Shown here: positions 14,924 to 63,991 of the stretch, one piece after another
How positions within the stretch are numbered: the first letter of the stretch is position 1
How the letters are laid out: each line of letters begins with the position of its first letter
NCBI GenBank assembly: GCA_030068145.1
Contig: JAPJBO010000091.1
Location: forward strand, 186,001-250,000
DNA: 64,000 bases
Source of the DNA: Diplonema papillatum
Taxonomy: Eukaryota; Euglenozoa; Diplonemea; Diplonemida; Diplonemidae
Direction of reading: 5' to 3'
Notes under the pieces: generated by a model
What the model saw: the letters and a program-made list of their open reading frames with translations, nothing else
Database searches by the model: none
What the model was told of the DNA's origin: nothing
Position numbers and translations under genes: made by a program

Positions 14924-16700
14924 TTATTCTTCGCTTTTTCTCACGAACGGGATTAGGGTCCCTAAGGGCCCCCGCAGATTAGCGAGCTCGTCAATTGTAG
15001 ACTGCGGGACGACAAGGGTATTCGACGGGTGTAAGCCTCGCGTGTATGGGTCCGCCGCCTGCAAATGGGTTGGCACCCATCTGACTCTCAACGTGGCCCC
15101 GTGTCCCTCCAGCAATTTAAACAACTTTGAAAGGAGCACGTTTCCCACGAAGAGTCGACAGTGGCCCTTCAGAATCGCCAGGACTACACCCATGTTATCG
15201 ACCATCATGTCGATTCCGATTCCCGAACCCCTGACCTCGATCGCCAATTCGACGGCCCTGACTACCGCAAGCAGTTCCTTCGAGAAGATACCCTCGAGAT
15301 GGTGAAAAAATCCTGCCTTCACCACACCAGGTCCCACCTCGAGAGCCACGGCCCACATGTCGTCCGAAGCATCGCTCCAACCCACTATCCACTCGCGGCA
15401 CGGTCTAACCGGACGAAACCAGTAATTCGCTCGAATCTCCAGAACCTCCCGCTCGAGCTCCCCGATTTCCTTCAGGGACAGCTCCACGCAGTTATCCCAG
15501 AGCTCGTACCGAACTCCGATCCTACCCGCCAGACGACGGGCAACGTCCATCAAACCTTGCCGTGCGCAGAGTCTCCTCTTCATCGCGAAACACCGCCATG
15601 CGATCCTTCCGAGCCAACCAAACACGGTGCGCGCTGTTATGCGCGGTCCTCTTTCGAACCACGAAAGGTCAAGCGTCTTCACCCACGCCGGATCCATTCT
15701 CACCGAGCCTTCCGTGAGATCGAACTCCATGCCCAGCGCCTTCAGCCTCTGCGTCGGCACCAGGTCTTCCTTCACCTCCAGCCGAGCCTTCTCGATCAGC
15801 GCTCTGAACGCTCGAGCCTTCGCCCAGCACGCCTCCTCTGTCTCCGCGCCAAAGAAAAAATTATCCACCCACGCAAAACCTTGGACCTGATGCGCCAGCA
15901 CAGTCGCGATGCGTTGCGCGATCGCAGGTGCCCAAGACCAGCCCATTGGAAGCTTGCGTAGGACAAAGGATTCAAAACCACCCCGGGACGCTGCAAGATT
16001 CACGCAGAAGAACTGCGACACAGCTCGGTCCATCGGTATTTGGAAGAAAAAGGACCGTGCATCGCATGAGATCACCCACTTCCACGACAGGAGCGCAGCC
16101 ACTGCGTCCTCCAAGCGCGGAAGGCCCATCGGAGGCGGAGGCGCAAACACGTCGTTGATCTTTCGCCCATCAACTATTACGCGCAACCCCCCAGACGATT
16201 TCGGTACGGTAAACACCGGCAACACGAATTGGGCTTCCCGAAGGCTGGTCGGCTGCAGCAGGCCACACGCCTGGAGCACGCTGGCATGTCGCAACATCCT
16301 ACGAGACGTCGAACGGAGCCTCCCCGGCTGATCCTCCCATTCCGGCTTCAACAAAGACCGAAAGACCTCCACCGATCCGATTACCTGCAGCAAACGCGCC
16401 AGCTCGCCCGTCTCATCCAACTCTTCCACAAAGGCAAGGTCGATTGAATTCGATGAGATCGGGGCGATCTCGCCGTCGTAGCAAGGTACAACTGAAGGCT
16501 TCTTTCCGTCCACCGGAAGGGCCCACTCGGGACCCGAGTACCCTTCCTGCCATATGCATCCTTCATCCGCCTCGCGATCCGGCTCCGGCGCCTCCAGCAC
16601 GTCGTCTCCAACGTAATCCGTCCAGAAGGCGAATAGGGGAACAGCACGCCTCGCCCGCCGCAGCCAGCCCTGCGGAAAAGCCGGCCGCCTCAGCAGCACA
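14924..16700 (-). CDS. Reverse transcriptase-RNase H of YR retrotransposon
   Basis: The open frame extends up to 17479, but the part upstream of about 16700 overprints the recombinase and has no domain. The real product starts near the recombinase stop. Motifs numbered from 17479 are: FTVPKSSGGLRVIVDGRKIN (424-442), D473 in SCDARSFFFQIP, KLPMGWSWAPAIAQ (509-521), and WVDN (537-540) where YxDD is expected. RNase H follows: WIVGWSDASDD, SKELLAVVRAVELAI, MMVDNMG and WVPTHLQAADPYTRG. The stop codon lies inside repeat B1. The Asn at the second catalytic Asp is either a lineage variant or a disabling change. Confidence 0.85.
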
Positions 16701-18588
16701 GCCTCTGCGAGATCTGGAGGAGTTCTCGCACATGGCTCAACTCCGCCATCGGAAGATACCGGAGCAGGGCCGACTCCGATGAGTGGCCCGAAAACTGCCG
16801 AATCTCGTTGAGGCCCACTCCTCCCCGCAGTAGCTCCGTTAACGCGCCCCTTCGCAGGGAATGGCACGACAGCTCCGGATTCTCCCGACGCAGCGCCCGT
16901 CCCACGCTTCCGAAGGTCGTCGGAAAGAGCTTCTCTCTTGCACACCCCGCCATCGCCCTCAGCTCCGCCGTCTCCCGCGCCGACAGGGCTATCGCCGACA
17001 GGGCCCCCATGTGAAATGGATCCGACTTCGTGATCCACCATGAGATCTTCGCACCCCCCGGAGTGAACGTCACGTCCTGAGGGCGCAGACGAACTACGTC
17101 GCCTACTCTCGCTCCCGACCTCCATGCCACCAGGACGGCCATCGCCACTGCCCGATCCGTCGACCGACCCACAACAGCGTGAACCTCGGCGCTCGTCGCC
17201 GGAACCGCCTGTTTCGCCGGTTTGTTCGCACCTAAACGCCGCAAGGCCCGACGGAGGTCCTTTATGACGATCGATCCCTGAAGATCGTTGCCAACGCGGC
17301 GTTCCGTTGACACCAACGAGTTGACGTAGGTCAGGGCAGACGGAATCGAAATGTCCCCCCGACGCAACAGCCTCGCGATGAACAGCAGCAACGCAGTCGG
17401 CGTCTCCGTCGGTGACAGAACGTCGAGCATGCGCCGAAACTGCAGGAACCTGCGGTGAACAGATTCCATACCCCGCCAAGTCGAAGGAGCGAGAGCCGCC
17501 TGCATCAGCTCCCTCGCGTCCCCCATCACCAAAGAGAGCTCCTGCCGCTGAAGCAGAGGCTCCTCTTTCCGCGGTCTCCCGAGGCGTGAAACGGAAGAAC
17601 GGAACTCGCGGCTCACGCCCCGCCAGCCCCGCCTCCAGTTTCCCGTCCCAGTGTCCTCATCCCCACAGTAGGAAGCCTTCACTTCCTTCCTTCGCCACCG
17701 CGACTGGACTTTGCCTTCTGAAAAGCGTTCCCGCCTTGCTTCGCCTTCTCCTTCTTGCGACGCATCTTCTCGGCGGCAGCCAGCCCCTTCTTCAGGAAAT
17801 CGGGCGCCTCGTCCTCCTCCCACGCCGTGGCCGCAGCTTCCGCTTCCTGCCACCCGGCCGTCTGCCCGATGCGGACCACTTCCAGACGCCTGAGAACCGC
17901 TTCCGCCACCTTCCGCAAGGCCGTCGAATGCGGTCTCCGTCTCTCCAATCGCCCCCAGGACGATGCCCAACGTCTTGAGGTGGGCCTCGGTCTCGTGGCC
18001 CTGCGCTCCCTTCGCCACCGCGTAGCGGCGCGCCAACTCGCCGTACACAACGGCTCTCTCTTTCCCGTCGAGGGTCGTCCAGGCTTGCGGCTTGAGAGCC
18101 TGCAGGCCCACAGCCAGACCCCCGGGTCCAGCGGACCCGGGGCGCTGGCCGTTTTTTGCCTCGGCCAGCTCAGCTCGTAGGGCCGCCACTTCCTTCCTCA
18201 TCTCCGTGAGAAGAGAGGCCACCCCTGGCTCCTCGGCGGCCGCCTCGCCGTCGGCCGCTTCGCCGTCGGTGTCTTCTTCTCCATCGCTCGACTCCTCCTC
18301 AACCAGTACGCCTTCACGCTTAAGCCACGTCCGGGTGACCTTTTCCTCCCACAGGCTCAACAGCCAGCAAAGATGCCACTGTGCTGCTCTTTGGGGGACG
18401 TCCTCGAAACCCAGCTTCCCTAGCGCCGCGCGCATCTGGCCCGCCCTGTCCGTTGCATCCGCGAACAGCCCTTTCATCTGGACCACTTCCCTCGCGTCCT
18501 TTTCCCAGGATGGGAACCTCAGAACCTTCCCTGTTCCCGTGGCCACGGCCTCAGCCAGGGCTTTCGCGGAGGATTCGTCCAAGGCCAT
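16690..18588 (-). CDS. Gag-like plus tyrosine recombinase ORF
   Basis: This is a 632-residue ORF starting ATGGCCTTGGACG. Residues 1-150 are helical and acidic (EEESSDGEEDTDGE near 98-110), with no zinc knuckle. Residues 230-345 are Gly/Arg-rich. Residues about 350-632 form a tyrosine recombinase: Arg at 494 (AWRSGARVGD), Lys near 521, H576-S-L-R579, His602 (SGHSS) and the nucleophile Tyr611 (LLRYLP). All catalytic positions are present. The enzyme would integrate circular cDNA. The last third overlaps the reverse-transcriptase ORF in another frame, so the downstream protein probably depends on frameshifting or reinitiation. Having the recombinase upstream of the reverse transcriptase is not the usual DIRS order. 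Confidence 0.85.
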   Translation of the reverse strand: MALDESSAKALAEAVATGTGKVLRFPSWEKDAREVVQMKGLFADATDRAGQMRAALGKLGFEDVPQRAAQWHLCWLLSLWEEKVTRTWLKREGVLVEEESSDGEEDTDGEAADGEAAAEEPGVASLLTEMRKEVAALRAELAEAKNGQRPGSAGPGGLAVGLQALKPQAWTTLDGKERAVVYGELARRYAVAKGAQGHETEAHLKTLGIVLGAIGETETAFDGLAEGGGSGSQASGSGPHRADGRVAGSGSCGHGVGGGRGARFPEEGAGCRREDASQEGEGEARRERFSEGKVQSRWRRKEVKASYCGDEDTGTGNWRRGWRGVSREFRSSVSRLGRPRKEEPLLQRQELSLVMGDARELMQAALAPSTWRGMESVHRRFLQFRRMLDVLSPTETPTALLLFIARLLRRGDISIPSALTYVNSLVSTERRVGNDLQGSIVIKDLRRALRRLGANKPAKQAVPATSAEVHAVVGRSTDRAVAMAVLVAWRSGARVGDVVRLRPQDVTFTPGGAKISWWITKSDPFHMGALSAIALSARETAELRAMAGCAREKLFPTTFGSVGRALRRENPELSCHSLRRGALTELLRGGVGLNEIRQFSGHSSESALLRYLPMAELSHVRELLQISQRLCC

Positions 18589-44690: not shown

Positions 44691-45183
44691 TGTTGTCCAA
44701 TATTTTATAGCCTCCATGGTCTCCCTGACCCCCCTCGGAAGGCCCCTGAGGTACCCAAAGGATCCCCTTGTGACCCCCCACAAATGGGCGACAAAGTGGA
44801 TTAGGCGACAAAGTGGATTGGCGACAAAGTGGGTTATACTCCAGTTACCGTATTTCTAAAAACGTTGGCCCCCCTAAAAGTTGGCCGGAAAAAATGTTGG
44901 CCGGAAAAAAAACCTGGCGGTTTTGGGGGGGCGCCAGGTTTATTTCCGGCCAACATTTTTTCCAACCAACATTTTTTTTGGTAAAAGCAAGTTGTACTTA
45001 GCCAGCGTACTAGCTCTGACCTCGACCCCCGAGCCCGGAACTGGTAAACTGGTCTGTATCCAGATTTTGTGCACAGGGGGAGGGCAGACACCCCCGTTCG
45101 GCAACGAATGCCTGCAGAGCGAAGTCGTACCGGATAGCGGTGGCATGGTGGACAAAGAACGAAGAAAGCCATACGCCTGCTAC
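44691..45183. other. MITE fragment and a stem-loop
   Basis: Bases 44787-44835 carry three CGACAAAGTGGRTT words of the MITE family. Bases 44891-44960 form a stem (AAAATGTTGGCCGG/CCGGCCAACATTTTTT and AAACCTGGCG/CGCCAGGTTT). No gene is seen. Confidence 0.6.
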
Positions 45184-46608
45184 GGGAAACAAAGGGACGA
45201 GTGGGCCTACAACAGCGTCAGTGGGAAACAAAGGGACGAGTGGGCCTACAACAGCGTCAGTGGGAAACGAAGGGACGAGTGGGCCAACAACAGCGTCAGT
45301 GGGAAACGAAGGGACGAGTGGGCCTACAACAGCGTCAGTGGGAAACGAAGGGACGAGTGGGCCAACAACAGCGTCAGTGGGAAACGAAGGGACGAGTGGG
45401 CCAACAACAGCGTCAGTGGGAAACGAAGGGACGAGTGGGCCAACAACAGCGTCAGTGGGAAACGAAGGGACGAGTGGGCCAACAACAGCGTCAGTGGGAA
45501 ACGAAGGGACGAGTGGGCCAACAACAGCGTCAGTGGGAAACGAAGGGACGAGTGGGCCAACAACAGCGTCAGTGGGAAACGAAGGGACGAGTGGGCCAAC
45601 AACAGCGTCAGTGGGAAACGAAGGGACGAGTGGGCCTACAACAGCGTCAGTGGGAAACGAAGGGACGAGTGGGCCAACAACAGCGTCAGTGGGAAACGAA
45701 GGGACGAGTGGGCCTACAACAGCGTCAGTGGGAAACGAAGGGACGAGTGGGCCAACAACAGCGTCAGTGGGAAACGAAGGGACGAGTGGGCCAACAACAG
45801 CGTCAGTGGGAAACGAAGGGACGAGTGGGCCAACAACAGCGTCAGTGGGAAACGAAGGGACGAGTGGGCCAACAACAGCGTCAGTGGGAAACGAAGGGAC
45901 GAGTGGGCCTACAACAGCGTCAGTGGGAAACGAAGGGACGAGTGGGCCAACAACAGCGTCAGTGGGAAACGAAGGGACGAGTGGGCCAACAACAGCGTCA
46001 GTGGGAAACGAAGGGACGAGTGGGCCAACAACAGCGTCAGTGGGAAACGAAGGGACGAGTGGGCCAACAACAGCGTCAGTGGGAAACGAAGGGACGAGTG
46101 GGCCAACAACAGCGTCAGTGGGAAACGAAGGGACGAGTGGGCCAACAACAGCGTCAGTGGGCCAACAATAGCGTCGGTGGGAAACGAAGGGACGAGTGGG
46201 CCTACAACAGCGTCAGTGGGAAACGAAGGGACGAGTGGGCCTACAACAGCGTCAGTGGGAAACAAAGGGACGAGTGGGCCTACAACAGCGTCAGTGGGAA
46301 ACGAAGGGACGAGTGGGCCAACAACAGCGTCAGTGGGAAACGAAGGGACGAGTGGGCCAACAACAGCGTCAGTGGGAAACGAAGGGACGAGTGGGCCTAC
46401 AACAGCGTCAGTGGGAAACGAAGGGACGAGTGGGCCAACAACAGCGTCAGTGGGAAACGAAGGGACGAGTGGGCCTACAACAGCGTCAGTGGGAAACGAA
46501 GGGACGAGTGGGCCTACAACAGCGTCAGTGGGAAACGAAGGGACGAGTGGGCCTACAACAGCGTCAGTGGGAAACAAAGGGACGAGTGGGCCTACAACAG
46601 CGTCAGTG
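45184..46608 (+). repeat. 39-bp minisatellite, about 36 units
   Basis: The unit is GGGAAACGAAGGGACGAGTG followed by GGCCAACAACAGCGTCAGT, with C/T-A and A/G variants. One truncated unit sits near 46153-46180. The length (13 codons) keeps all three plus frames and two minus frames open, so the 580-, 539- and 343-codon ORFs are by-products. There are no spacers, so this is not a CRISPR array. It abuts a hAT coding end. Confidence 0.95.
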
Positions 46609-47095
46609 AAGGGCTTGGGTTAGTCATCATATCTTTGCGCATGACCCCCACTTTGTCGACGCACGCTTCATACTCCGGCCACGTGGCGAAGTTCAGTGTT
46701 CTTGGGCTCGCAATCCACGCATTGAGGTACGCCTCCATAGCGCTCCTCGGGATGTCACTGCCACGTTCATACGGGCCATTGAGCCCGAGCATTAGCACGT
46801 CGGTCAGCGTCTGCTCGTGAAGCCTCTTCCTGGCTTTTGTCAACACCCTTTTCATGTTTGAAAAGACACGCTCGACCGATGCTGTCCCCATTGGCAGGAC
46901 AACAGCAATGGCAAACAGATTGTTTGTCTCTGGAAATGCCGTCGAAAGGTTCGATGACTTCAGCAGCCCCAGCATGACCTCTTCCAATGCACCCGGTGGT
47001 TGAACACGGTGGAAGTACACTGTGGTACCCCGTGGTAGCACACTGTGGTACCCCGTGGTGCACGGTGGTAGTACACTGTGGTACCGTGTACACAC
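46592..47095 (-). pseudogene. hAT transposase C-terminal fragment
   Basis: The minus frame reads DLSTAFPETNNLFAIAVVLP-like sequence (LSTAFPETNNLFAIAVVLPM), then GTASVERVFSNMKRVLTKAR and RLHEQTLTDVLMLGLNGP. This is the hAT dimerisation motif (SVERVFS--K----K-R). The frame ends SLTLL-stop, with the stop inside the first 39-bp repeat unit. Catalytic N-terminal parts are not found upstream before E2 begins at 47151. Confidence 0.7.
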
Positions 47096-47355
47096 TGTAG
47101 TAGTACACTGTGGGTAGCCGGTTTCTCCGGGAAAACAATAATAGCTGAGATGGTGTGATCGGTATAACCATGGGGTACTACGGGGGAACTACGGGGAACT
47201 GGCCTTGGGGTGTCCTTTTTTTTTTTGGTGGTTCTTGAGGGGCATAGGTCTCATGTTTCCCTCAGACTGCGGGGGCTTTGGAGTTAGTTAAAGGGTTTGG
47301 GGCTTTTTGGGGGTGTTGGTGGACAGGGGCGCCAGGGGTCTTCAAACCGGCGCGT

Positions 47356-47691
47356 TTAAATTTAGGGAAAACGACAAAGTGGATTCTATATAACTGGATT
47401 ACGACAAAGTGGATTCTAATCCACTTTGTCGCCAATCCACTTTGTCGCCTAATCCACTTTGTCGCCCCGTATGACGGACCTAAGCTCACTTTTGATGGTT
47501 TCAATGAACTCAAACAGCTCAAAATAGTCACTTTCCCTGTGGGAACTTTTTGTGAAAGGGTCCCCCTATATAATTCATGCCGGTTGTCAGAAGCGACAAA
47601 GTGGATTATTACTGGATTATAATCCACTAATAATCCACTTTGTCGTAATCCAGTTATATAGAATCCGTTTTGTCGTTGACCCTAAATTTAA
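47356..47691. mobile_element. MITE, CGACAAAGTGGATT family, complete copy
   Basis: Ends are TTAAATTTAGGG on both sides read inward, then AACGACAAA and TTCTATATAACTGGATTACG. The internal sequence matches 35275-35370 inverted. No coding region. No convincing target duplication was found. Confidence 0.7.
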
Positions 47692-47745
47692 CAGAGAAGC
47701 ATTGCATAATAAAGCTAGACAGCTTTATGAAATGCTTCTCTGTGT
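47692..47745. repeat. Stem-loop beside the MITE
   Basis: CAGAGAAGCATT...TAAAGCT is followed after a 4-base loop by AGCTTTAT...AATGCTTCTCTG, giving a long stem. Role unknown. Confidence 0.65.
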
Positions 47746-47878
47746 TCTAACATCTGCTGCTGTAGCCTAAACGAAATGTGACCCCAATACGATGCAATCG
47801 CCTTACAGGTGACTTTTGCATCCGGAATCTCAAGCGAGCTCGAACTCTAAATAAAGCGCAAATCATCTCTCTCGTAAA

Positions 47879-48832
47879 ATGATCGTTTCCATTGAACTGG
47901 CTACAAAAGAAAGTACCCAAATAAAGGCACGAAACAAAATTCAAAAGCGTAAAATGCAATTCTGTATCGGCGTTACGTTTCACTGCTTTACGAAATATCT
48001 CCAAGTCCGCACGACGGAAGAGCGTGAGGAGAACGACAACAGCGAGACCGAAGAAAGCGACACCATCGACCTGAAGGAAGAAGACATGAAGTACAACGCC
48101 GACTTTATGACTAACGGCTCGCTGCAAACGTTCCACGAGTCCACAATACGGCCGCACCTGCTGGAATGCGGAAACCAGCTTGCAGAAAAGAAAGACGCTC
48201 CTTTCCTTAGGGGGGCTACCGGTGTCGCACGTCGCTGGTTTTATAAGGAGCGCGACGACGAGACGGAAGTGCTCAACGACGCGGGACTACAAAAGGTCGT
48301 CGAAAAGAAGTTGAACCTCCATATAGTGGTCCGTTTGGAGCTGAAAAAGCACTCGGCAAAGCACGTCCGAAAGCACCTGCTAACACACGACGCGGAAGTG
48401 CACGACAACTCATACACATCGCGGGCGGACAGTAGCTCGATGATTACGAACAAGTTGGAGGAGGCGCTGTGTGACAGGTTCGGCAAGGTGGGGCTGAAGT
48501 TCGGACCCTCTTGGGTGCTTTGTATTTGTGGCACAAAGGTCAGCAACCCGCCGGACAGGCTTTCTGACGGGACGTCGTTTGTACGACACGGTTGTCGATG
48601 CCCGAAGTTCGCCAAGAAGCTGTCAAAGAACGCGAAAGCAGACCTAAAAGCTTTCAGAGAAAAAGAAGCTGCTAAAAATAAGAAGAAGGTGGCGGCCAGG
48701 AAGGATCTCACAAGGGGCATGTCCGAACAAGAAAAGGCCAACGCCAAAAAGATGTTTGAAATGGTTGGCTTCAAACGAAAGGCAGACGAGGAAGCAGAGG
48801 TCGAGAACCCACGCAAAGAGGCAAAAATCTAG
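47879..48832 (+). CDS. E2 ORF1, unrecognised 317-aa protein
   Basis: This is an intact ORF from ATG to TAG inside transposon E2. It has an acidic stretch (residues 47-69) and paired Cys motifs LCICG (215, 217) and GCRCP (239, 241) that could bind metal. A Lys/Arg/Glu-rich C-terminus (244-317) suggests nucleic-acid or nuclear association. No domain I can name. It lies upstream of ORF2 on the same strand with 212 bp between. Whether the two are separate genes or joined by splicing is unclear. A DNA-binding accessory protein is a guess from context only. Confidence 0.6.
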   Translation: MIVSIELATKESTQIKARNKIQKRKMQFCIGVTFHCFTKYLQVRTTEEREENDNSETEESDTIDLKEEDMKYNADFMTNGSLQTFHESTIRPHLLECGNQLAEKKDAPFLRGATGVARRWFYKERDDETEVLNDAGLQKVVEKKLNLHIVVRLELKKHSAKHVRKHLLTHDAEVHDNSYTSRADSSSMITNKLEEALCDRFGKVGLKFGPSWVLCICGTKVSNPPDRLSDGTSFVRHGCRCPKFAKKLSKNAKADLKAFREKEAAKNKKKVAARKDLTRGMSEQEKANAKKMFEMVGFKRKADEEAEVENPRKEAKI

Positions 48833-49044
48833 CTTTCTGGTGATAGCCTCCATCGTAAAGGCATTTCTTTTTTTGTGTGTTCCCGACGATCAATTATAGT
48901 TTTTTGTTGTCTCAATTCTCTTTTGTTCTGGATGTCCATTGGAAGCGACGGCCTGTCTATCCGGCGGCAACTCGGGTATTCGACTAGCTGACGAAGAGAA
49001 ATTAACGTTTGTAATGTCGGTGTGTTCAAAACCAATGCAGGGGT

Positions 49045-51405
49045 TTGTTGCAGGAAAAGGAACGAGAGCGAGTCAGGAAAGCCTGGAACAACGGGGAGAT
49101 GAAGATTGACGTTACTTTCGTGAAGCCGTGTGGAATGCGCCATGAAGGTTTTCTCGTCGAGAATGCTGACTGGAACGCTATCGTAGGACTTGCGAAGTCG
49201 GTTGGCTACGCGCTTGCTGGGACATATGTGCGCCTCGCTACCGGCCCCCCTTCAACAGTTTGTCTGGCCGACTGTCCTGTTGTTCTCAGAGAGGACTTGT
49301 GGAAGCTCAGTTGCGGCCATTGCGTGCTTGTACCAGTCCTCGACAAGAATCGCGCTGTGGTGACGGACGGCGGAGGCCTGGCCGACGGAGAACTGCGAGG
49401 TATCGTAGACAGCCTGATGGCGGAAGATGTCAAGATCCGACGCATACCCCGGGTACTCCTCATTATCCAGCGAGTAAAAGTGAGTCGTTTCAGGGTTGAG
49501 CGAGCATGGCAGAGCAACCTGGTTGCGCGTGATATCTCGTTTTTGTGTGCCATCGAAGACAAGGATGTCGCCTTGCAGCACGATAGCACACCTGTTAACG
49601 AGAATTGGCATGCAATCCACTTGACAGCAACTTGGATGCAAGGAACATCACAAAGGCACCATTTCCTGAAGGCGTGCCTTTCAACCGTGCACGATGGCAG
49701 CATGGTGGAAGACGCAGTGACAGAAATCTGTTGCTACTTCTCGTCTCTCACGCAAGAACTTCGAGGGCTTGGCGTTCTCGGCCCTGATGCCTTTTTCGAG
49801 CAAGACCGCTTCTGCTGTATGTTTACGGACCGCGGAGCAGGTGTGGGGGGCCTCAAACAACCCCGGGTATACGAACCAGTGCACAGGTTGCATCGGACGA
49901 TGAGCAGGGTTGTGACCGAGCTCAAGATTGGGAAGGAGATGACGTTCCTGTGTGCAGCAGCGAACGACGTGGCATCTTCACCTGCATTTGCTGTATGGCT
50001 GCGGGAACAGGGCGGCCCGGAGTTGAAAGGTGTGTTGTGGCAGAGGGCGACGACAGGGAGATTCGGAACGTCCTGGGCAGCCGCGTGGTCTCTATCATGC
50101 ACCGTTGGTCAGAAGACCCTATTGGGATGGTACTTGGACTTCCTCGGCAGCTTTGATGAAACGACAGAGTATTCGAAAAAAAAGAAGAATATCGTCATGT
50201 ACCTGACTCCTCGTGGTACCCAGGAGCGCTTCCGTCGAATAGGTTTAGCATTTGAGATCATTGCATATCCGGCGTTGAGGCGAATCTGGCAGTACGCTGG
50301 GGAAGAAGTACTCGACGACGACTTTACTGCCGGCTTTGCCAGCGATTTGATGGCTACCCTGGGTCTCTATTTCACAAAAATTCGAACTGGAAAGGACATT
50401 TTCGGGAATCCGCTGTGGATGGAAAAAGCGAGACGAGGTGTGACATTTCCTACGAAGGCCCCGGAAGTAAAGTTTGTGTGCCAGCGGAACTCCGTTCAGC
50501 AGTTCATTCGGCGTATGAAAGCCCACTTAGACGCGGCTGGCTCTATTGCGAGCTATTACGGAGGTCCCGGCGTGCAGATGCCAACCATTAAACCCATAGA
50601 CGAGGCAACAGATTCAGCTTTCCTGTCTTCTGTTGCCCACAGGTTTGCCTGCGGCATTGTTGCAGAGCTGACCATGTACAGCAAGGCAACAGCGGATACC
50701 CCAAGACCCGTAAAGCTAGGACCGAGTCTCATAGAGGGCACCGTTGGATCCATGAAACGTCACCTGCAACAGCAGACAAACACGCGCATCCGCGATGAAT
50801 GCATCAGGGCAAAGCTATCGAGCACCAACGCTCACCTGAGCATTCACCAGCCCTACCCAAAGACAATTCAGCAATATGCTGCGCAAAGGATAGAAACTAT
50901 CCAGGCGAGGAAAGACCGATGCGGTTTGCTGAAGTTGACCCACTACAAGGCGAAGCAAGTTTCTCATGACGACAGGAAAAAGTGGCAGGCAGAACGCAAT
51001 GACTTCATCAAAAGGATTCCTTGGCGATTCGATGCAGACAGTCATTGGCGAAAGGATGCGCTTGTGCAGCAAGCTGAACGGCGAGGTATCAAGTCCTGCC
51101 AAAACTGGAGCAAAGACAAGCTTGTGTCTGCATGTCAGGAAGCTGATGAGAAGTTGCTTCTTGACGAGCTAAAACAGCACGCCCTTGCCCGAAGCATGCG
51201 ATTCCGGGCTAATGTTGTTGCTGGCAAGTTGCTCCATGACCTGGAACAGAAGGATGCAAAAACCGAAGAACCCGAGGCTTTGCCGCGTCCGAGGTCTCCC
51301 TCCCGGCAGCGAAAGAAGCAACCCCAAGAAGACGAGCCCCCCCTGAAAAAGGTGCGCTTCGAGACAGCTAATAGCGAGGATAGTGAAAGCAGCGAGGAGA
51401 TGTAG
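49045..51405 (+). CDS. E2 ORF2, unrecognised ~780-aa putative transposase
   Basis: The open frame is 786 codons with no break. The first in-frame ATG is at 49099 (MKIDVTFVKP); alternatively an exon begins after gtttgttgcag at 49053. The middle is a compact globular-looking region rich in Trp and aromatic residues (e.g. CCMFTDRGAGVGGLKQPRVY, WAAAWSLSCTVGQKTLLGWY, GPSLIEGTVGSMKRHLQQQT). The C-terminus is basic with an NLS-like PRSPSRQRKKQ and PPLKKVRF, ending in a Ser/Glu tail. I cannot assign a DDE, YR or other catalytic motif with confidence. Its size, nuclear signal and position as the only large protein in a TIR element argue for a transposase. Confidence 0.6.
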   Translation: MLQEKERERVRKAWNNGEMKIDVTFVKPCGMRHEGFLVENADWNAIVGLAKSVGYALAGTYVRLATGPPSTVCLADCPVVLREDLWKLSCGHCVLVPVLDKNRAVVTDGGGLADGELRGIVDSLMAEDVKIRRIPRVLLIIQRVKVSRFRVERAWQSNLVARDISFLCAIEDKDVALQHDSTPVNENWHAIHLTATWMQGTSQRHHFLKACLSTVHDGSMVEDAVTEICCYFSSLTQELRGLGVLGPDAFFEQDRFCCMFTDRGAGVGGLKQPRVYEPVHRLHRTMSRVVTELKIGKEMTFLCAAANDVASSPAFAVWLREQGGPELKGVLWQRATTGRFGTSWAAAWSLSCTVGQKTLLGWYLDFLGSFDETTEYSKKKKNIVMYLTPRGTQERFRRIGLAFEIIAYPALRRIWQYAGEEVLDDDFTAGFASDLMATLGLYFTKIRTGKDIFGNPLWMEKARRGVTFPTKAPEVKFVCQRNSVQQFIRRMKAHLDAAGSIASYYGGPGVQMPTIKPIDEATDSAFLSSVAHRFACGIVAELTMYSKATADTPRPVKLGPSLIEGTVGSMKRHLQQQTNTRIRDECIRAKLSSTNAHLSIHQPYPKTIQQYAAQRIETIQARKDRCGLLKLTHYKAKQVSHDDRKKWQAERNDFIKRIPWRFDADSHWRKDALVQQAERRGIKSCQNWSKDKLVSACQEADEKLLLDELKQHALARSMRFRANVVAGKLLHDLEQKDAKTEEPEALPRPRSPSRQRKKQPQEDEPPLKKVRFETANSEDSESSEEM

Positions 51406-51784
51406 CGCAGAAACGTCACAGGTTTGCAGACTGGGTTATTTCATCAAGATGTTGGAACCGTTTGACCGTCGAGATCCCACAAATTTCGCTTTCCAATTTC
51501 CGGAGGACGTGTGCCGTCTTGTTTTTTGGTCGTTTTATTTTGTTTTTACGCAGTGTCTTCTTCTTCATCCTCTTGGCTTTCCGACCTTCGTGGGCCAAAT
51601 ATCATCAGAATTGTCCACATTGTGTGACAGAAAGGTGCAAAGTCGCTAGGAAGTGCTCGCCAAGATCAAGAATCACAGCCCTGAAGTACTCAGCAAAAAC
51701 TGAAAAAGCAAAAAAAAAAACGACACCCCCCCCCCTGGTTGAACTACGGGGGAACTACGGGGAACTGGCCCACCGACCACACCA

Positions 51785-53473
51785 TGAGATTTTTTTTTGA
51801 CCCAGACCAGTTTCCAGGCCAACTCTGGTCTGGCGACCAGCTGACCCCCCCCAAGCTAGTAGGCTGTACTTAGCAGATTTCACTGCTACACCTAGTCAGG
51901 CAGGGCCCTCACCGGAAGCTGTTCTCCCGCGCTACAGGGATAGCGCAAGGGTTTGCTGGGATCGCCGACGGCTTAGATACACGGGCCGTCATGATCGCCA
52001 TCACCAACGACTTCTTACCTCCAGGGCCACCCCAAGCCACCCCCAAAAGCACGTCCAAGTGGAGCTTTGGTCTTGAAGAGTAAGAGTGGGAATCCAGTTG
52101 AGGAGCCACATTGTTGCCGAACTTACCGTGATGATGCTCATGGTCGACTCGAGTTTCGTCGGCTCTGCAGCTTTTTGCCACGGTGGAAGGACCCGCCAGC
52201 GACTGCGCCCGACCTCGCTCCCGCGAGCGATTACGTTGATCGATCAAAAAATATTGCATGCCTAATACTCTCCAGGGAAAAGACTTGCGATAAGGGGTAC
52301 TATGGACCTACGGAAGTGGCCGGTACCACGTGGGTTGCTGCCACCTCCAGTCAAAAAGTTCTGGACTTGGCTTCTGGGAGGAGCACCCCGGATCCAACAG
52401 CGGCTGTGCAGCACACTCAACATATCAAAGAGGAACTTCTTCCTTTGTCCTACTCTCGCGTTCCTACCAACATGTTGCACAAGCGTACGCCATGCCCCAA
52501 CTGTGTTGTGCGCCAAGACAGCTGCGAACAGAGAAGGATGCATAAACCGGGACATGTCAGACGTTCATCAAAGACACGACTCCGCAAGCCTCATGTCCGG
52601 GTACCGAGTAGGGACGGCGAGCAATTTTAGCATCACAAAGAAAGCCGGATGTTGGCTTTGGGCTGCGTTCCAGGGGAGGTGGATGGTGTGCGCGAAGGTT
52701 ACAGCCGTCCTGGATGTGCATGGAGCAGAACTCCAACCGTGGCTCATGCCACTATCGCCAGATAGTCGTTGTTAGTTTAGATTACCGGGTGTTGCCCAGT
52801 ACTGAGTCTACAACGTAGGGGGAAAAGGATGTGCATCCAGACAGCACCAATCCATTAACAGATTCCGTTTCATTTGTGTACAAGAGGCGAACTAACAGAA
52901 ATCCAATCACTGGGTAACTTTGTAGGAGAAATAACAGAAATATCCAATCACTGAGTGAGCTCTATTATCTAGTCCAAAAACAATACACTTTTTCATAGAC
53001 AAAAGCCGGGTTGGCTATTCACATTGCATGTTCATAGGACCGCCAGTCTCGAAAAAATCAAAAGAAATGCGTGTGGGTGTGGAAATCAACACGTGGAGCG
53101 TAAGCCCTGCCCCGACTAGGCTAGGCCCGCAGTGCTGGCTGCATACGTGCAAACGTTTGCGCAAACGTTTGCGTTTGCGTTGTGCAGATCTGGCAGAGCC
53201 GTCTGCAAACGTTTGCAAACAGCAACAGTGCAGTGCGTGTCGAGGCTATTTTTTTTTGCCGTGCGTTGCGCTGAAAGAGTTTCTCACGTTGCGACTATTC
53301 GAAAGGAAAAGCTGGGACTGACAGATGATTGTCGTAATCTAACTGACAGTCAGCAGTCTGCGTCTGCAACTTTTCAAAAATCGTCTGCAGACGGCAACAC
53401 TGGGCTCCGGAAGGTTTTTGCAGCCAAACATTTAGTGACAAAGATGTTGGTAAACAGGGGAGAAGGACGGTAC
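51785..53473. other. Intron A/B beside exon A
   Basis: Minus-strand open segments at 52262-52555 and 51909-52259, and a third frame above 52560 (SGFLCDAKIARRPYSVPGHE), look coding-like but broken. They may be a decayed transposase of unknown type. GCAAACGTTTGC palindromes lie at 53145-53220. No intact gene is seen. Confidence 0.35.
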
Positions 53474-56951: not shown

Positions 56952-59122
56952 TCAGCTCCGGCCTGCCTCATGCGACGTGAACTCAGCCGTGTTCACTCCT
57001 CCCGCCAACGCTACACGTATAAGCCTCGCGGTGTGCGCGGGACATTCACGCATCCTCCAGAAGGAGTTCGTCCGCTCCAGGTCAGCCCTCTGCACACCCT
57101 CGAATCCCGGCCGCCTCGCTACTAGACGGGACCACGTCTTCGCCCTCAAATCCGCCCTCACCTCATGCCCCCTCTTCGAGGGTGTCGAGGCTATCGGGTC
57201 AAACATTGTACCATTCCTCAGCGTGCGAGACAGGGGCCCTGGTCCCCATACGTGTCCACACTCCTCCATGCTCCTCATCGCCAGCCCAACTGGCCCCAGG
57301 GGTAGGTCCCCCTCGGCGTACCTTCCCCGGATGCTCTCCATCAGAGGCAGAAGTCGTGGCAACCTCTCGCACGCCGCGTAGAACGCCGTCGTCACCCTAT
57401 ATGCTAGGCATGTACTGGGGTCCGTCAGGTGGCCCTTCTCCTGAAAGTTTAGGACCATCTCCCTCGCGCGCTTTGGGTTGGACCCACCCCAGATCAGTCC
57501 CATCACCGACGTCGTCAGCCGTTTCATTGCCACCTTCGACACCGGCGCGAAAGAGCAGCCTGACAGCGCCGCCGGTAGCACATTCGACTGTACAATTCGG
57601 ACCCGCTTCTCGTACCGGAACGGCGCATGGCGGAGGCCTTCCGCCAGGGCAGCCGCCTTCTCCACCCTCTCCGAGTCGGACCTTTCTGTCCTATTCTTCG
57701 CCGTCGAGACTAGGACCCCCAGGCACGTGACAGATTTGCCAAACCGCAGCAGCGCATCCACGCTGCGGAGTCTGAGCGTCGACTGATGCTTACGTCTCGT
57801 CGAGAAAGCGACCGTTTTCTGGAGGTTTAGCTCCATTCCGGTGAGTGTGCAGAACTCGTCTACTACGTCCACCCCCTTTTGCAGGGCGGCCTCCGACAGC
57901 CTGGATAGCAGCGTGGCATCGTCTGCGTACGACTTTGGGCTCACCCCCTCCGCTTCTTTCTTGACCGCCTTCATCACTACCGACAGCAGGGCATTGATGA
58001 GGATGACGGACACAGGGCACCCTTGAAGGATACCATTGGTCACACTAAACTCCCTGCCCACCCCTAGAGGCAGCTTGAAGCGTCTCGCGAGCAGTCTGTA
58101 GATCGCCCTCAGCGGCTTGAGAACCCGATTGTGCAACCCTAAGTCACCGGCCAGGCGCAGCACTATCTCTCGCGGGACCATGTCGAAACATTTCCGGAAG
58201 TCCAGCGCCACCCCGTAGAGCGGCTCTCCATCTAGCAAGGCGTCCTCCATCTCGAGCCCTATCTCCATCAGGACGTCCTCGATACGGTGACCCGGTCGAA
58301 AGCCCTTCTGTCCTTCTTCGATCCACTTCTCCTGCCACAGGACTATGTCCGCAAGCCTGCGGCACGCCCATAGGCGGTACACAGCGGACGTGACGGTTAT
58401 TGGCCTCGTGTGCAGCGGGTCTTGGCTCTCATCCTTCGGCACCATCGACACCAGGGCAGTTGTCATGCTCGCCGGCCAAACCCCAGTCACTTCGACCAGG
58501 TTCATGACATCCGCTAGCGCATTCAGCAGGGGAAGCGGCAACTCCCGCAGTTCAGCCATGCGCCAGCCATCCACGCCTGACGCGCTTCTCTTCGGCTTCT
58601 TCCTTAGCAGAGTCCGCAGCTCCTCCCCCGTGATCGTTCCGGGTTCCATCAAGTGTGTGTCGATGTGCTCCTGGAACCGATCCCGAAACGGACCGTACTC
58701 CGGCTCTGGCCGGTCCTTGTACTTACGCAGGATAGCGTCCCACGCAGTGTGCAACACCTCGTCCATCTCGTCCACATTTTCAGTCATCTTCGCTCCGGTG
58801 CGCAACATTCCCGACGGCTCAGCGCGACCGGCGCAGACGGTCGCTAGACATCGTCTGCTCGCGTCCGCCCTCTCGTTCAGCTTGTCTCGGTACTTCGTAA
58901 ACCTGGCCGCAGATCCTTCTCTTCCGAGCCTACTCGTCTCTTCCCGCAACGCTGTGAGCAGCTGCTTCGCCTTCTCATGATCCGGAACCCCCCCTGCGCC
59001 TTGGTCGCCCACCACGCTTGTGCCAGCCGCTTGCAGTTCTGCCAGCAGAGGGATACCATGTGGAACAGCTTCCGGCCCGCGACGTTGCGCGAGGTAGCTG
59101 CAGATGCGTTCCATCCGGTGGA
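56952..59122 (-). pseudogene. LINE copy 1 reverse transcriptase
   Basis: A long open frame encodes a non-LTR reverse transcriptase. GVDGWRMAELRELPLP opens the domain (about residue 186 from 59132). It is followed by GFRPGHRIEDVLMEIGLEME, D311 in VALDFRKCFDMVP, GILQGCPVSVILINALL and SYADDATLLSR (YADD at 402-405), all intact. After the thumb region the frame is broken near 56971 by a small deletion relative to copy 2, which also removes two residues of the CCHC knuckle. The reverse transcriptase would prime cDNA at nicked target DNA. Confidence 0.85.
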
Positions 59123-59190
59123 TGTTTAGCATTGAGTTATTTTAAGTACATGAACCACATGGATTAGCATGCACTGCCTTGAAAGTCAGG

Positions 59191-60168
59191 TTATCGGATG
59201 ACGTCGTCACCTGCCACTACTGGCGTTTCCCGTTGTACGCCCACCTGGGTGGGTGAGGAGGGCCTCTTTTTCTTGTTGCGTCCGGGGGTTGACTGGATGT
59301 TCGGCTTGGTGGACTGGTGGTGGCCGCGGCTCGCCGGTCGCCTCTGCGTCAGCGTAGGGAGCCTTTTGCACTCTTGGCAGGTTCCTCTGCCATGCATGCG
59401 GCAGGCATGATGCCCGCTGCGGCAACACGCCGCCGCCGTCTTGCACTCGCCGCACTTCGTCGTGCTGTGCTCTGTGCACACCGCGATCGGCTGCTCATCG
59501 TCCGCGTGGTGATGGTGCCGGCAGCACATCTCTACCGTGGGAGCGTCCCTTCGGACGAGTGTACTGCACGCCTCACACTTCCCTTTGTGATGGGTCGCGC
59601 ACGTGACGAGTGCCTTCTCTATACCGACACCCGGCATATGCACGGGGTCTGGGTGCAGTTGTGGTGGGCCACACCTCGCCACTCTCCCGATCGTCCAGTC
59701 AGGGTACGTCGGGCACTGCGTCCCTACATCGCTTCCTTTCACTTGTTCCTCAAGTATCGTCCCCGTGTGTGCCTCGCGAAAGCGTGGCCTGGGCCGTACA
59801 CCCGATATCCCCGAGATGCCCATGAACGACAGCGACGTCGTCGGGCACACCCTCTCCCCTCTCATGCAGCTTCCCAGCCCTTGCTGTGCCGCCAGCTTGT
59901 CCAACGCGCTCATCATGCAGCGCAGGACGTTTCCCCGTTCTCTCACCCCCTTCGGCGCATTCCCGTGCAGCGGCATGCTGAGGCCCGAGAAGAGTTCAAA
60001 GTCGATCGCAAGCTCCAGCATTGACGCCTGCCCGTTCTCGGTCCATTGCATGTCCGACAGCCACGCTACCAACGCATAAAACGTCGGTAGTCCCCAGGTC
60101 TTGTTCCGCTCCCACGTCCATGCCGGGGCAATCCGCGCGAAGGGGTGGTCAAATTTCTCGGCAGGCAT
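59191..60168 (-). pseudogene. LINE copy 2 C-terminal B-box-like region
   Basis: The frame reads through three Cys/His modules: VTCATHHKGKCEACSTLVRR...CCRHHHH, then CTEHSTTKCGECKTAAACCR with SGHH, then CRMHGRGTCQECKRLPTL with RRGHHQ. It ends after a short basic tail (GVQRETPVVAGDDVIR) that lacks about 140 residues found in copy 1. The first module is complete here. The modules may bind nucleic acid or protein; that is inference. Confidence 0.75.
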
Positions 60169-62300
60169 CGCATTCGCTCTCGACCAGGGGGTCGTGGGGT
60201 TCCTGGCCAGTGCTTCGAGCCCGCCCGTTCCGCAAGGATTTCAGCCATCATCTCCTGGAGCCGCCTCGAGAATTGGGCATTCTCGGGTACTACCACTCCG
60301 TGTTCCAGCGTGCATCTGGGCCAGTCGGCCCGGTTGGCTGCCATCAGCTCGGCATGTGCCTCTCGTCGCCGTATGTGCGAGTACGCTCCGCAGTCCCAGA
60401 ATACGTGTTTCTCGTCCTCGGTGTCGCCGCTTCCACAGTGCTTGCAGCTGGGCGCCTGCGGCTCAGCTCCGGCCTGCCTCATCCGCGACGTGTACTCAGC
60501 CGTGTTCACCCCCCCCGCCAACGCTACACGTATAAGCCTCGCGGTGTGCGCGGGACATTCACGCATCCTCCAGAAGGAGTTCGTCCGCTCCAGGTCGGCT
60601 CTCTGTATGCCCTCAAATCCCGGCCGCCTCGCCACCAGTCGGGACCACGTCTTCGCCCTCAAGTCCGCCCTAACTTCATGTCCCCTCTTCGAAGGTGCCG
60701 AGGTTAACGGGTCATATGTTGCACCATTCCTCAGCGTGCGAGACAGGGGCCCGGGTCCCCATACGTGTCCACACTCCTCCATGCTCCTCATCGCCAGTCC
60801 AACTGGCCCCAGGGGTAGGTCCCCCTCGGCGTATCTTCCCCGGATGCTCTCCATCAGAGGCAGCAGTCGTGGCAACCTCTCGCACGCCGCGTAAAACGCT
60901 GTCGTCACCCTATATGCTAGGCATGTACCGGGATCCGTCAGGTGGCCCTTCTCCTGAAAGTTTAGGACCATCTCCCTCGCGCGCTTCGGGTTGGATCCAC
61001 CCCAGATCAGTCCCATCACCGACGTCGTCAGCCGTTTCATCGCCACCTTCGACACCGGTGCGAAAGAGCAGCCCGACAGCGCCGCCGGTAGCACATTCGA
61101 CTGCACAATCCGGATCCGCTTTTCGTACCGGAACGGCGCATGGCGGAGGCCTTCCGCCAGGGCAGCCGCCTTCTCCACCCTCTCCGAGTCGGACCTTTCC
61201 GTCCTATTCTTCGCCGTCGAGACTAGGACCCCGAGGCACGTGACGGATTTGCTAAACCGCAGCAGCGCATCCACACTGCGGAGTTTGAGCGTCGACTGGT
61301 GCCTACGTCTCGTCGAGAACGCGACCGTCTTCTGGAGGTTTAGCTCCATCCCGGTGAGTGTGCAGAACTCGTCTACTACATCCACTCCCTTTTGCAGGGC
61401 GGCCTCCGACAACCTGGCAGCAGTGTGGCGTCGTCCGCGTATGACTTTGGACTCACACCCTCCGCTTCTTTCTTGACCGCTTTCATCACTATCGACAGCA
61501 AGGCATTGATGAGTATAACGGATACAGGGCATCCTTGAAGGATACCGTTGGTCACACTGAAATCCCTGCCCACCCCTAACGGTAGCTTGAAGCGTCTCGC
61601 GAGCAGTCTGTAGATAGCCCTCAGCGGCTTGAGAACCCGATTGTGCAATCCCAAGTCCTCGGCTAAGCGCAGCACTATCTCTCGCGGAACCATGTCGAAG
61701 CATTTCCGGAAGTCCAGCGCCACACCGTAGAGCGGCTCCCCGTCTAACAAGGCGTCCTCCATCTCAAGCCCAATTTCCATCAAGACGTCCTCGATCCGGT
61801 GACCCGGTCGAAAGCCCCTCTGTCCTTCTTCGATCCATTCCTCTTGCCATAGAACTATGTCCGCCAGCCTGCGGCAGGCCCATAGGCGGTACACGGCGGA
61901 TGTGACGGTTATCGGTCTTGTGTGCAGCGGGTCTTGACTCTCGTCTTTCGGCACCATCGACACCAGCGCAGTTGTCATGCTTGCCAGTTGCTTCGACCAG
62001 GTTCATGACGTCTGCAAGTGCATTCAGCAGGGGGAGCGGCAACTCCCGCAGTTCAGCCATACGCCAGCCATCCACACCTGACGCGCTTTTCTTCGGCTTC
62101 TTCCTCAGCAGAATTCGCAGCTCCTCCCCCGTGATTGTTCCGGCTTCCATCATATGTGGGCCGATGTGATCCTGGAACCGATCCCGAAACTCCGGCTCTG
62201 GCCCGTCCTTGTACTTACGCAGGATAGGGTCCCACGCAGTGTTCAGCGCCTCGTCCATCTCGTCAACATTTGCCGTCACCCCCGCCCCCGTTTGCAGCAC
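60066..62300 (-). pseudogene. LINE copy 2 reverse transcriptase and CCHC knuckle
   Basis: Three overlapping frames together cover the domain. 62300-61990 has SASGVDGWRMAELRELPLPL, 61978-61420 has ALDFRKCFDMVP to YADDATLL, and 61420-60066 has the thumb. Frameshifts lie near 61980 (small deletion after NLVEATG) and 61420. The CCHC knuckle, lost in copy 1, is present: SCKHCGSGDTEDEKHVFWDC (C-x2-C-x8-H-x4-C). Confidence 0.82.
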
Positions 62301-63110
62301 CCCCCGACGGCTCAGCTCGTCCGGCGCTGATGGTTGTCAGACATCGTCTGCTCGCATCGGCCCTCTCGTTCAGCTTGTCTCGGTACTGGGTAAACCTGGC
62401 CGCCGATCCTTCCCTTCCGAGCCTGCTCGTCTCTTCCCGCAATGCCGTGAGAAGCTGCTTCGCCTCCTCATGATCCGGGAATCCTTCTGTCCCCTGGCCA
62501 TCTTTCATGCACGCCTGTGCCAGCCGCCTGCTGTTCTGCCAGCAGCGGGATACCTCATGCGGAACTGCCTCCGGCCCGCGTCGTTGCGCAAGGTAGCTGC
62601 AGATGCGTTCCATCCTGTGGATGGCTTTCCGGAGCCGTAGCTGCCTGCTGTTCGCCGCCCCCGACCCGTCGCTCGCAGTGCTTGCTGTGATGCAGACTCT
62701 TTTAGGCGACGTCTTTATCCCCCGGCCGGTACTTCTTCCCCTTTCTTCCGCAAGGATTCCGAAGGCGTCCTGCAAGTACTGCTCACTGACTCGTGACCAC
62801 TCGAGCCAGGCTTCCTCCACTCGCTGTGCTGCCAGCCGTTCTGCGAAATCGGAGTTGGCCAGTCTCTGTACGGCTTCCCTGTAGGCTTCTGTGTCCGAGA
62901 GGCCCCACTTGGTAGGTCCCCCCTCCGTAGAGATTTCCCGCGGTACTTTAAATCGCCACACGATTTGGCGCAGCGCCGCAATGTCCAGGGTCATTGTCAC
63001 GAGCCGGTGTCCCGGCACGTTCACCGCGGTGGTGACGCATTGGCGGAAAGCTCCCGTCGTTATTCGGTTGAGGAGTATGCGGTCGATCCTCGTGCCCGAT
63101 GTCCGGGCGC
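62263..63110 (-). pseudogene. LINE copy 2: endonuclease end and linker
   Basis: The frame RIDRILLNRITTGAFRQCVT, then NVPGHRLVTMTLDIAAL is the C-terminal part of an APE endonuclease (the SDH motif appears as PGH here). A helical linker follows with HRMERICSYLAQRRGPEAVP, shared with copy 1. The frame breaks near 62263-62300 before the reverse transcriptase. Confidence 0.7.
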
Positions 63111-63214
63111 TGGTAAAGGTCGGTGGTGGTGGTGTGTCACCGGTACGCGCATGGTGCAGTTCCGCTGCGTCGAACCATCCATTCCTTAGTGCCTTCCGCT
63201 GTTCAGGTCTCCCA

Positions 63215-63991
63215 TCACCATTGTGGGGACGTCACCGAGGCTATCCGCCGCTGCGAAGAGGATCTTCTCCAGCATGTCCTCACGCTCCTCGCTCTCTGCC
63301 CTCCCGTTTCCGGAAGGGCAGTAGACATTGAACACGTGCACGAACGTGGTATCGGTCTCAGTACTAGAGTGGAGAGCCCTCCGTTCGCGGCGTTCATCGT
63401 CGAGCGACTACCGGAGTTTCTACAGAGTCTTCCGGGTGGTGGCAGACCCCAGTGGCAGCACCATTTCCGCAGGTATTCCTCCGCCTGCGCCCGTTTGCAC
63501 GGAAGGAGTGTCACCTCCTGGCAGCAGAGAAGATCTGCTTCCACCGCGTCGGCCGCTGGGAGATACTGTAGTAGGTTGGTTACGTTTAACGTCGCGAACC
63601 TCATCTCCGCGCGGCCGGGACCAGGGTTCTGTTCGACGTCCCCAGCGGTTATCAGCTGCTGTCTTGCTGATTCTTTGATTGATTGTGGAGTTCTTTGGTG
63701 ATGAAGCAAAAGTGTCCGTGGCGCGGGGCTGGACTGATGTTGGGGGGGTGCAGTAGATGCCTGAGGGCTGGGCGGGGGGGGTATGGGTGTTTCTTGCGGG
63801 GTGTCCCGGCCTTGCAAACTTTGGGAGGCGGCCTCGCGCACGGCCCTGTAGGTCAGCGAGACGCGGTCGCGTGCGACATCATCGGGACGAACCCCGTGTG
63901 TCCACAGGTTCCTGGCCTCGCCTTCCATGTGGCACAGTGTGCCGACCGGCAGAGGGGTCCTCACTCTCCGGCTCCCCCTCTCCCATTCCAT
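63215..63991 (-). pseudogene. LINE copy 2: 2A-like motif and APE endonuclease N-terminus
   Basis: Residues 117-125 of this frame are GDVEQNPGP (63617-63643), the consensus of 2A ribosome-skipping peptides (D-V/I-E-x-N-P-G-P). The APE-type endonuclease begins just after it: MRFATLNVTNLLQYLPAADA then DLLCCQEVTLLP, matching the first strand and the catalytic Glu. The upstream 115 residues are Pro/Gln-rich. A frameshift follows near NAANGGLSTLVLRPI. 2A motifs at this position are known from some non-LTR elements, where they separate an N-terminal peptide from the enzyme. Confidence 0.78.

Follow-up and report, generated by a model that had tools for sequence, protein, structure and literature searches.

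The 64,000-nucleotide stretch of the Diplonema papillatum genome analysed here, hereafter the window (G000:C91:186001-250000), harbours E2, an element of 4,634 bp that is delimited by terminal inverted repeats (TIRs) and a 5-bp target site duplication (TSD) and carries two long open reading frames, ORF1 and ORF2. E2 belongs to a set of about a hundred nearly identical copies that spread recently, and very probably constitutes an autonomous DDE transposon, which is moved by the product of ORF2. Together with five other families of the same genome it appears to form a lineage of superfamily rank and of a hAT-like kind, for which a position outside both hAT and IS256/MULE is about an even bet. 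Somewhat more tentatively, we propose that E2 represents a new DDE superfamily with a diplonemid as its sole known host to date. Its hAT-like transposase would cooperate with a separate, conserved zinc-finger-like ORF1 protein that takes the place of the BED finger, and integration would proceed at a 5-bp stagger flanked by an A-rich stretch on one side and a T-tract on the other.

In the sea, diplonemids rank among the most abundant protists. A published description of E2 was not found in the literature, as judged by titles and abstract openings. In its passages on mobile elements, the D. papillatum genome paper names TATE, MULE and Helitron as DNA-transposon ORFs and leaves a rigorous census for later; the published assembly amounts to 280.3 Mb (PMC10161547).

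Copies of E2 and their age

Copies were sought in a 271 Mb assembly of D. papillatum. The best 32 of 1445 candidates in the DNA search comprised 31 full-length copies, the window copy included, and one copy truncated by a contig end. Each of the other 30 full-length copies measures 4,656 bp. In the full alignments of two of them (L002, L008), the difference from the window copy is a gap of 22 bp inside the internal hairpin, accompanied by one substitution. The terminal 25 bp of the left end recur at 385 genome sites with at most three mismatches, while the reversed pattern yielded none, and the 25-mer is exact in 94 of the 100 sites listed out of these 385. In addition, a 100-residue piece of ORF2 was at least 99% identical in 113 of 150 scored places (the best 150 of 180 candidates, counted by hand), 92 of which lie within an unbroken frame of 796 codons. 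With the whole ORF2 protein as query, all 57 places scored were 100% identical, the best-scoring places being taken first. Since the 385 end sites exceed the counted coding copies, places bearing the ends and devoid of the coding piece probably exist.

At the DNA level, ORF2 is free of differences from the window copy in all 38 rows of the best-scoring loci (L001 to L038), two of which, L001 and L012, are the window copy itself. ORF1 differs from the window copy in L013 and L018, and a lower-scoring copy, L039, shows two differences in ORF2. A further copy (L040, G000:C487:108600-114500) is interrupted between bases 74 and 84 by about 4.5 kb of other sequence.

The counting of copies and the alignment of their ends and TSDs uphold the limits of E2: an exact 5-bp TSD was present in seven of the eight full copies read with both flanks (L001 to L008, L001 being the window copy), the exception being L005, where ATTTT is displaced by one base. 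A first-pass annotation of the window had taken the intact frames to suggest recent activity, and this is borne out by about 90 intact, near-identical copies; recent activity is a plain inference from them. The lineage, with six families, one of which comprises these copies, is a strong candidate for a still-moving transposon, which would be a source of genome plasticity and possibly a mutagenesis tool in this model species.

Related families in the same genome

Five further ORF2 families exist beside E2 in D. papillatum, six in total. Three of these, represented by L041/L042, L043 and L044/L045/L046, encode ORF2 proteins that are 34-38% identical to that of E2, and in each an ORF1 homologue lies 5' of ORF2 (blastp E 4e-19 for L045, 3e-13 for L041 and 2e-12 for L043), so that both frames occur together in four families including E2. 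The annotation had named ORF copies without the E2 ends as evidence that would tell against it; each of the six divergent copies whose flanks were read begins with TGGTGTGRTC and ends with CACACCA, a result that covers the families of L041 to L046 and not the two most distant ones. An exact 5-bp TSD flanks three of the six (L041, L042, L044) and is lacking in L043, L045 and L046. Some of these copies are incomplete: L042 and L044 have a broken ORF1, and in L041 the right end of the element falls within the ORF2 frame. The ORF2 frame is constrained between L042 and L043; close pairs differ by just 3 to 6 codons and are uninformative.

The fifth family, consisting of L054 and L047, is 33% identical to E2 and up to 39% to the others. 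The sixth, L056 (G000:C2:165500-167600), is 20% identical to the first alignment row, and was linked to the others by a search from the fifth family (E 9e-5) and by the ORF2 profile, which gave single-target E-values of 2.6e-17 and 2.1e-6 for two segments. It occurs in at least 10 places at equal score, nine of them in a frame of 727 codons, and has a single protein-database match, the 458-residue hypothetical protein DIPPA_07811 of D. papillatum, which matches 76% of the 594 residues read at 100% identity. The stretch upstream of the L056 frame was considered as the ORF1 of this family and rejected, as it is a separate repeat of about 1.7 kb (L057:440-2132) with 48-bp inverted ends of its own and many partial copies.

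ORF2, a predicted DDE transposase, and its putative partner ORF1

The first-pass annotation had assigned about 780 residues to ORF2. The intact frame stands; the corresponding length of 786 residues is counted from the first ATG/TTG, while the aligned methionine gives 768. A conserved DDE/D triad was found in the alignment of homologues, with D, D and E in all six rows covering each position; in E2 the candidate residues are D162, D244 and E546 (190, 272 and 574 in stop-to-stop numbering). The second Asp and the Glu are 302-323 residues apart in five rows, a stretch that is mostly helical in the structural model, and an ExxH motif is present in all six rows covering its site, where hAT enzymes have CxxH. 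In the model, 10-residue block means of the predicted local distance difference test (pLDDT) range from 61 to 85 over residues 161-260 and fall below 50 around the Glu; an earlier model from seven rows was poor (pLDDT 54). The model furthermore suggests a ubiquitin-like beta-grasp domain at the N-terminus and a SAP-like segment at the C-terminus.

The frame of ORF1 is likewise intact, and its length was revised from 317 to 292 residues according to a start methionine that aligns in four families. Four residues, C190, C192, H212 and C216, are invariant in the ORF1 alignment and constitute a zinc-finger-like C-x-C...H-x3-C arrangement. Despite this C-C-H-C motif, Pfam reported neither a BED nor a Myb/SANT match in ORF1. 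Most likely, ORF1 is a conserved helper of the zinc-finger DNA-binding type.

A single cis-spliced gene comprising ORF1 and ORF2 was considered on account of the seeming lack of an ATG and the acceptor-like TTTGTTGCAG 5' of ORF2; because the start methionine aligns in four families, a separate ORF2 gene is more likely. The addition of a spliced leader to the ORF2 message is an inference from the biology of the host as outlined in the genome paper (PMC10161547).

Target sites

Right flanks were obtained from 33 of 37 loci examined (none from L015, L016, L021 and L026; L012 was omitted because it repeats L001). T occurs in 20 to 28 of the 33 at every position from 10 to 16 past the E2 end. TTTT lies within +6..+25 in 24 flanks, compared with a mean of 3.2 and at most 10 when the same flanks were sampled at random 5000 times, and AAAA within this interval in none, against a random mean of 3.9. 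These 33 flanks are not independent, as shared repeats connect L019/L022/L033, L005/L027 and L002/L020/L032. On the left side, A accounts for 56% of positions -25..-8 versus 25% (n=8). Together, the A-rich left side, based on eight copies, and the T-tract on the right suggest a symmetric target.

A palindromic target was also considered. The two flanks of a copy were more complementary to each other than swapped ones (mean 12.25 vs 10.5, p about 0.013, 3000 permutations, n=8), and L019, L022, L033 and L039 abut the apparent centre of one 90-bp palindrome. None of the 40 scored candidates contained a joined empty site; they matched one arm or slightly more, reaching 55 of 90 bases at best. As the whole palindrome was never found, E2 is taken to sit at a repeat end there, and the palindrome was dropped; the only target features retained are the T-tract, based on 33 right flanks, and the A-richness of the left side, based on 8 flanks.

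Proposed mechanism

In the proposed mechanism, ORF2 would act as a DDE enzyme of the RNase H fold with D162, D244 and E546 as catalytic residues and about 300 residues of mostly helical insertion between the second Asp and the Glu, as predicted for it and as found in enzymes of the hAT and IS256/MULE types. The enzyme would bind to the termini (TGGTGTGRTC) as well as to the subterminal repeats, excise the element and join its 3' ends to the target at a 5-bp stagger, which would yield the 5-bp duplications, with a preference for sites where a T-tract lies 5-13 bp past the duplicated 5 bp. ORF1 may assist as a zinc-finger DNA-binding protein, and both proteins would be expressed from separate mRNAs generated by spliced-leader trans-splicing.

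Affiliation of the transposase and competing explanations

Sequence searches agree with the earlier statement that neither protein matches a known transposase superfamily, and no significant match of ORF2 to a described transposase family emerged from Pfam, NCBIfam, PDB or protein searches. In Pfam, none of the ORF2 proteins scanned matched a hAT, BED or other transposase model, MULE and Transposase_mut among them, at E <= 10, a negative that is limited by the HMMER filters, which discard most matches above about 0.1. The silence of Pfam is meaningful with regard to hAT, because the same library recognises the hAT remnant beside E2 (PF05699, E 2.8e-5). NCBIfam and PDB sequence searches provided no family assignment for ORF2. 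In a database of 5.8 billion proteins, where each search scored the 7995 candidates with most words in common, only the D. papillatum protein was retrieved and no relative outside the host. One search of viral contigs gave no pattern match and another gave 41, none confirmed as relatives, as were none of 20 pattern matches in GTDB genomes. Repbase treats superfamilies as distinct when their transposases fail to converge in PSI-BLAST (PMC4455052). Under this rule, as applied to the searches of Pfam, NCBIfam, PDB and the protein database, E2 is a fair candidate for a new superfamily, as the first-pass annotation had proposed, though one with a predicted hAT-like fold.

Structural comparison qualifies the sequence-based picture, as ORF2 has no sequence family but does resemble known enzymes by prediction. 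The fold modelled for it corresponds to DDE transposases that bear a helical insertion, with the hAT transposase Hermes and the IS256-type ISCth4 as the closest matches and integrases also on the list. For this reason hAT has to be taken seriously, and it is quite possible, though we lean against it, that ORF2 is a very diverged hAT transposase near hAT5, which has 5-bp TSDs, and thus a new family of an old superfamily. Hermes heads the structural list, a hAT protein ranks first among viral models, and the succession of D, D and ExxH, an RF comparable with W319 of Hermes, the insertion and finally E follows the hAT plan as laid out for Kat1 and Hermes in the portions of that work concerned with it (PMC4763223). 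By eye, moreover, the Glu region of ORF2, LGPSLIEGTVGSMKRHL, is in register with MGTASVERVFSNMKRVL of the neighbouring hAT remnant. Against this affiliation stand the Pfam result, a transposase without BED finger, the TGGTGTG ends, and profiles of the E2 families, which score the hAT remnant at -3 to -5 bits, less than the top score among 2000 shuffled sequences. The assignment to hAT by sequence was consequently rejected, and the likeness of the Glu region is kept as a lead only.

A grouping of ORF2 with IS256/MULE-type transposases and not with hAT is unlikely. ISCth4 is second to Hermes by Z, provides all four of the best PDB matches in Foldseek (best E 1.5e-3) and superposes at 5.5 A over 243 residues, a lower root-mean-square deviation than that of Hermes; the Foldseek list is also full of chains that are neither transposases nor integrases, with Argonautes first.

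It is very improbable that E2 is a passenger whose frames are cargo or domesticated genes and which is mobilised in trans by an unrelated transposase. Giant elements reported from the brown alga Ectocarpus carry only genes without transposase homology (PMC12477816), and the movement of E2 is deduced from its copies; on the other hand, four families have jointly retained homologues of both frames between similar ends, and ORF2 has a transposase triad and a predicted transposase fold.

Finally, the TIR and TSD could be a chance pairing in a repeat with other limits, a reading refuted by the copies. The search for 12-bp TIRs with at most one mismatch, a 5-bp TSD and a spacing of 4-5.3 kb found three pairs in the window, E2 being one, and one pair in five block-shuffled windows combined, or about 0.2 per window, and the TIR and TSD of E2 alone are thus about at chance level and not convincing without other copies. 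E2 is certain as an element because genome-wide copies match at these ends: their homology begins and ends exactly there while flanks and TSDs differ. The inverted ends and the TGAGA duplication of the first-pass annotation are therefore real.

Layout of the element and its surroundings

The coordinates of E2 are compiled in Table 1. Two features that the annotation had not mentioned lie near both ends, namely a 28-bp direct repeat with identical copies and, further inward, an inverted repeat. The internal hairpin was considered as a free miniature inverted-repeat transposable element, which remained unproven, as the best 40 of 511 candidates were all positioned within E2 copies.

Table 1. Features of E2 in window coordinates
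Feature	Position	Strand	Remarks
E2 element	47151-51784		4,634 bp; 12-bp TIRs with one mismatch, TSD, two long ORFs
Left TSD copy, TGAGA	47146..47150	.	5 bp; other copies carry other 5-mers
Left TIR, TGGTGTGATCGG	47151..47162	+	12 bp; from sequence and genome sites of the terminal 25 bp
Left subterminal repeat	47177..47204	+	28 bp; same orientation as right copy, 100% identity
Inner inverted repeat, left arm	47207..47234	+	GGGGTGTCC and T-tract; 86% complementary to right arm
Internal hairpin	47356..47691	.	60-bp arms, 93% complementary; CGACAAAGTGGATTA repeats in both orientations
ORF1	47954..48832	+	292 aa from aligned start Met; 317 aa from first ATG at 47879
TTTGTTGCAG	49044..49053	+	Plausible splice/spliced-leader acceptor, judged from sequence; about 45 nt 5' of ORF2 start
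ORF2	49099..51405	+	768 aa; predicted DDE transposase, candidate triad D162, D244, E546
First candidate catalytic Asp codon	49582..49584	+	HDST; D in 6/6 rows covering position
Second candidate catalytic Asp codon	49828..49830	+	TDRG; D in 6/6 rows covering position
Candidate catalytic Glu codon	50734..50736	+	LIEGTVGSMKR, Lys 7 residues on; E and K in 6/6 rows covering
Inner inverted repeat, right arm	51702..51729	-	
Right subterminal repeat	51743..51770	+	Perfect direct repeat of left copy
Right TIR, CCGACCACACCA	51773..51784	-	Complementary to left TIR at 11/12
Right TSD copy, TGAGA	51785..51789	.	

Directly beside the left end of E2 lies the C-terminal piece of a hAT transposase (46595-47188, minus strand), and tandem GTGGTACCCCGTGGTA-like repeats (47020-47120) are located between this remnant and E2. 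A long tandem array of a short unit occupies 44878-46820, with translations GNEGTSGPTTASV and GKRRDEWANNSVS in different frames, and its large frames look like repeat artefacts. Other long frames of 322-910 codons are found in GC-richer parts of the window at 14927-17656 and 56955-63231, both on the minus strand.

Comparison with known systems

Among known systems, hAT elements such as Hermes and Kat1 share with E2, as judged from its alignment and predicted fold, the plan of a DDE enzyme with a large insertion between the second D and the E, an aromatic residue after an Arg within this insertion, a CxxH motif in place of the ExxH of E2, and the best structural match to the predicted fold of ORF2. 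In contrast to E2, they carry an N-terminal BED finger on the transposase, where ORF2 has no Pfam BED match and a predicted beta-grasp domain; E2 features a separate conserved ORF1 and TGGTGTG ends, and sequence matches between the two are lacking. The TSD of hAT is usually 8 bp, with 5, 6 and 7 bp in hAT5, hAT6 and hAT7, and in the sections of the source concerned with TSDs a length of 5 bp, as in E2, is reported only for hAT5 (PMC12730594). If the two-protein reading is true, a hAT-like transposase can work with a DNA-binding finger in trans.

The IS256 (ISCth4) and MULE groups resemble E2 in their DDE enzymes with a helical insertion, and differ by the absence of a Pfam match as well as by the 5-bp TSD and two-gene organisation of E2. 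With Transib and the wider CMCT group, E2 has in common a TSD length within the range of 2-5 bp given there (PMC12730594), whereas the CMCT motifs C(2)C and H(3-4)H between the second D and the E are missing in four of the five ORF2 rows spanning both residues, L056 alone carrying one of each. Harbinger elements (PHIS) have a different TSD and different ends, and their Myb/SANT type has no Pfam counterpart in ORF1; nevertheless, like E2, some of their lineages encode a transposase together with a DNA-binding partner, as exemplified in the same source by the Myb/SANT protein of Nuwa (PMC12730594).

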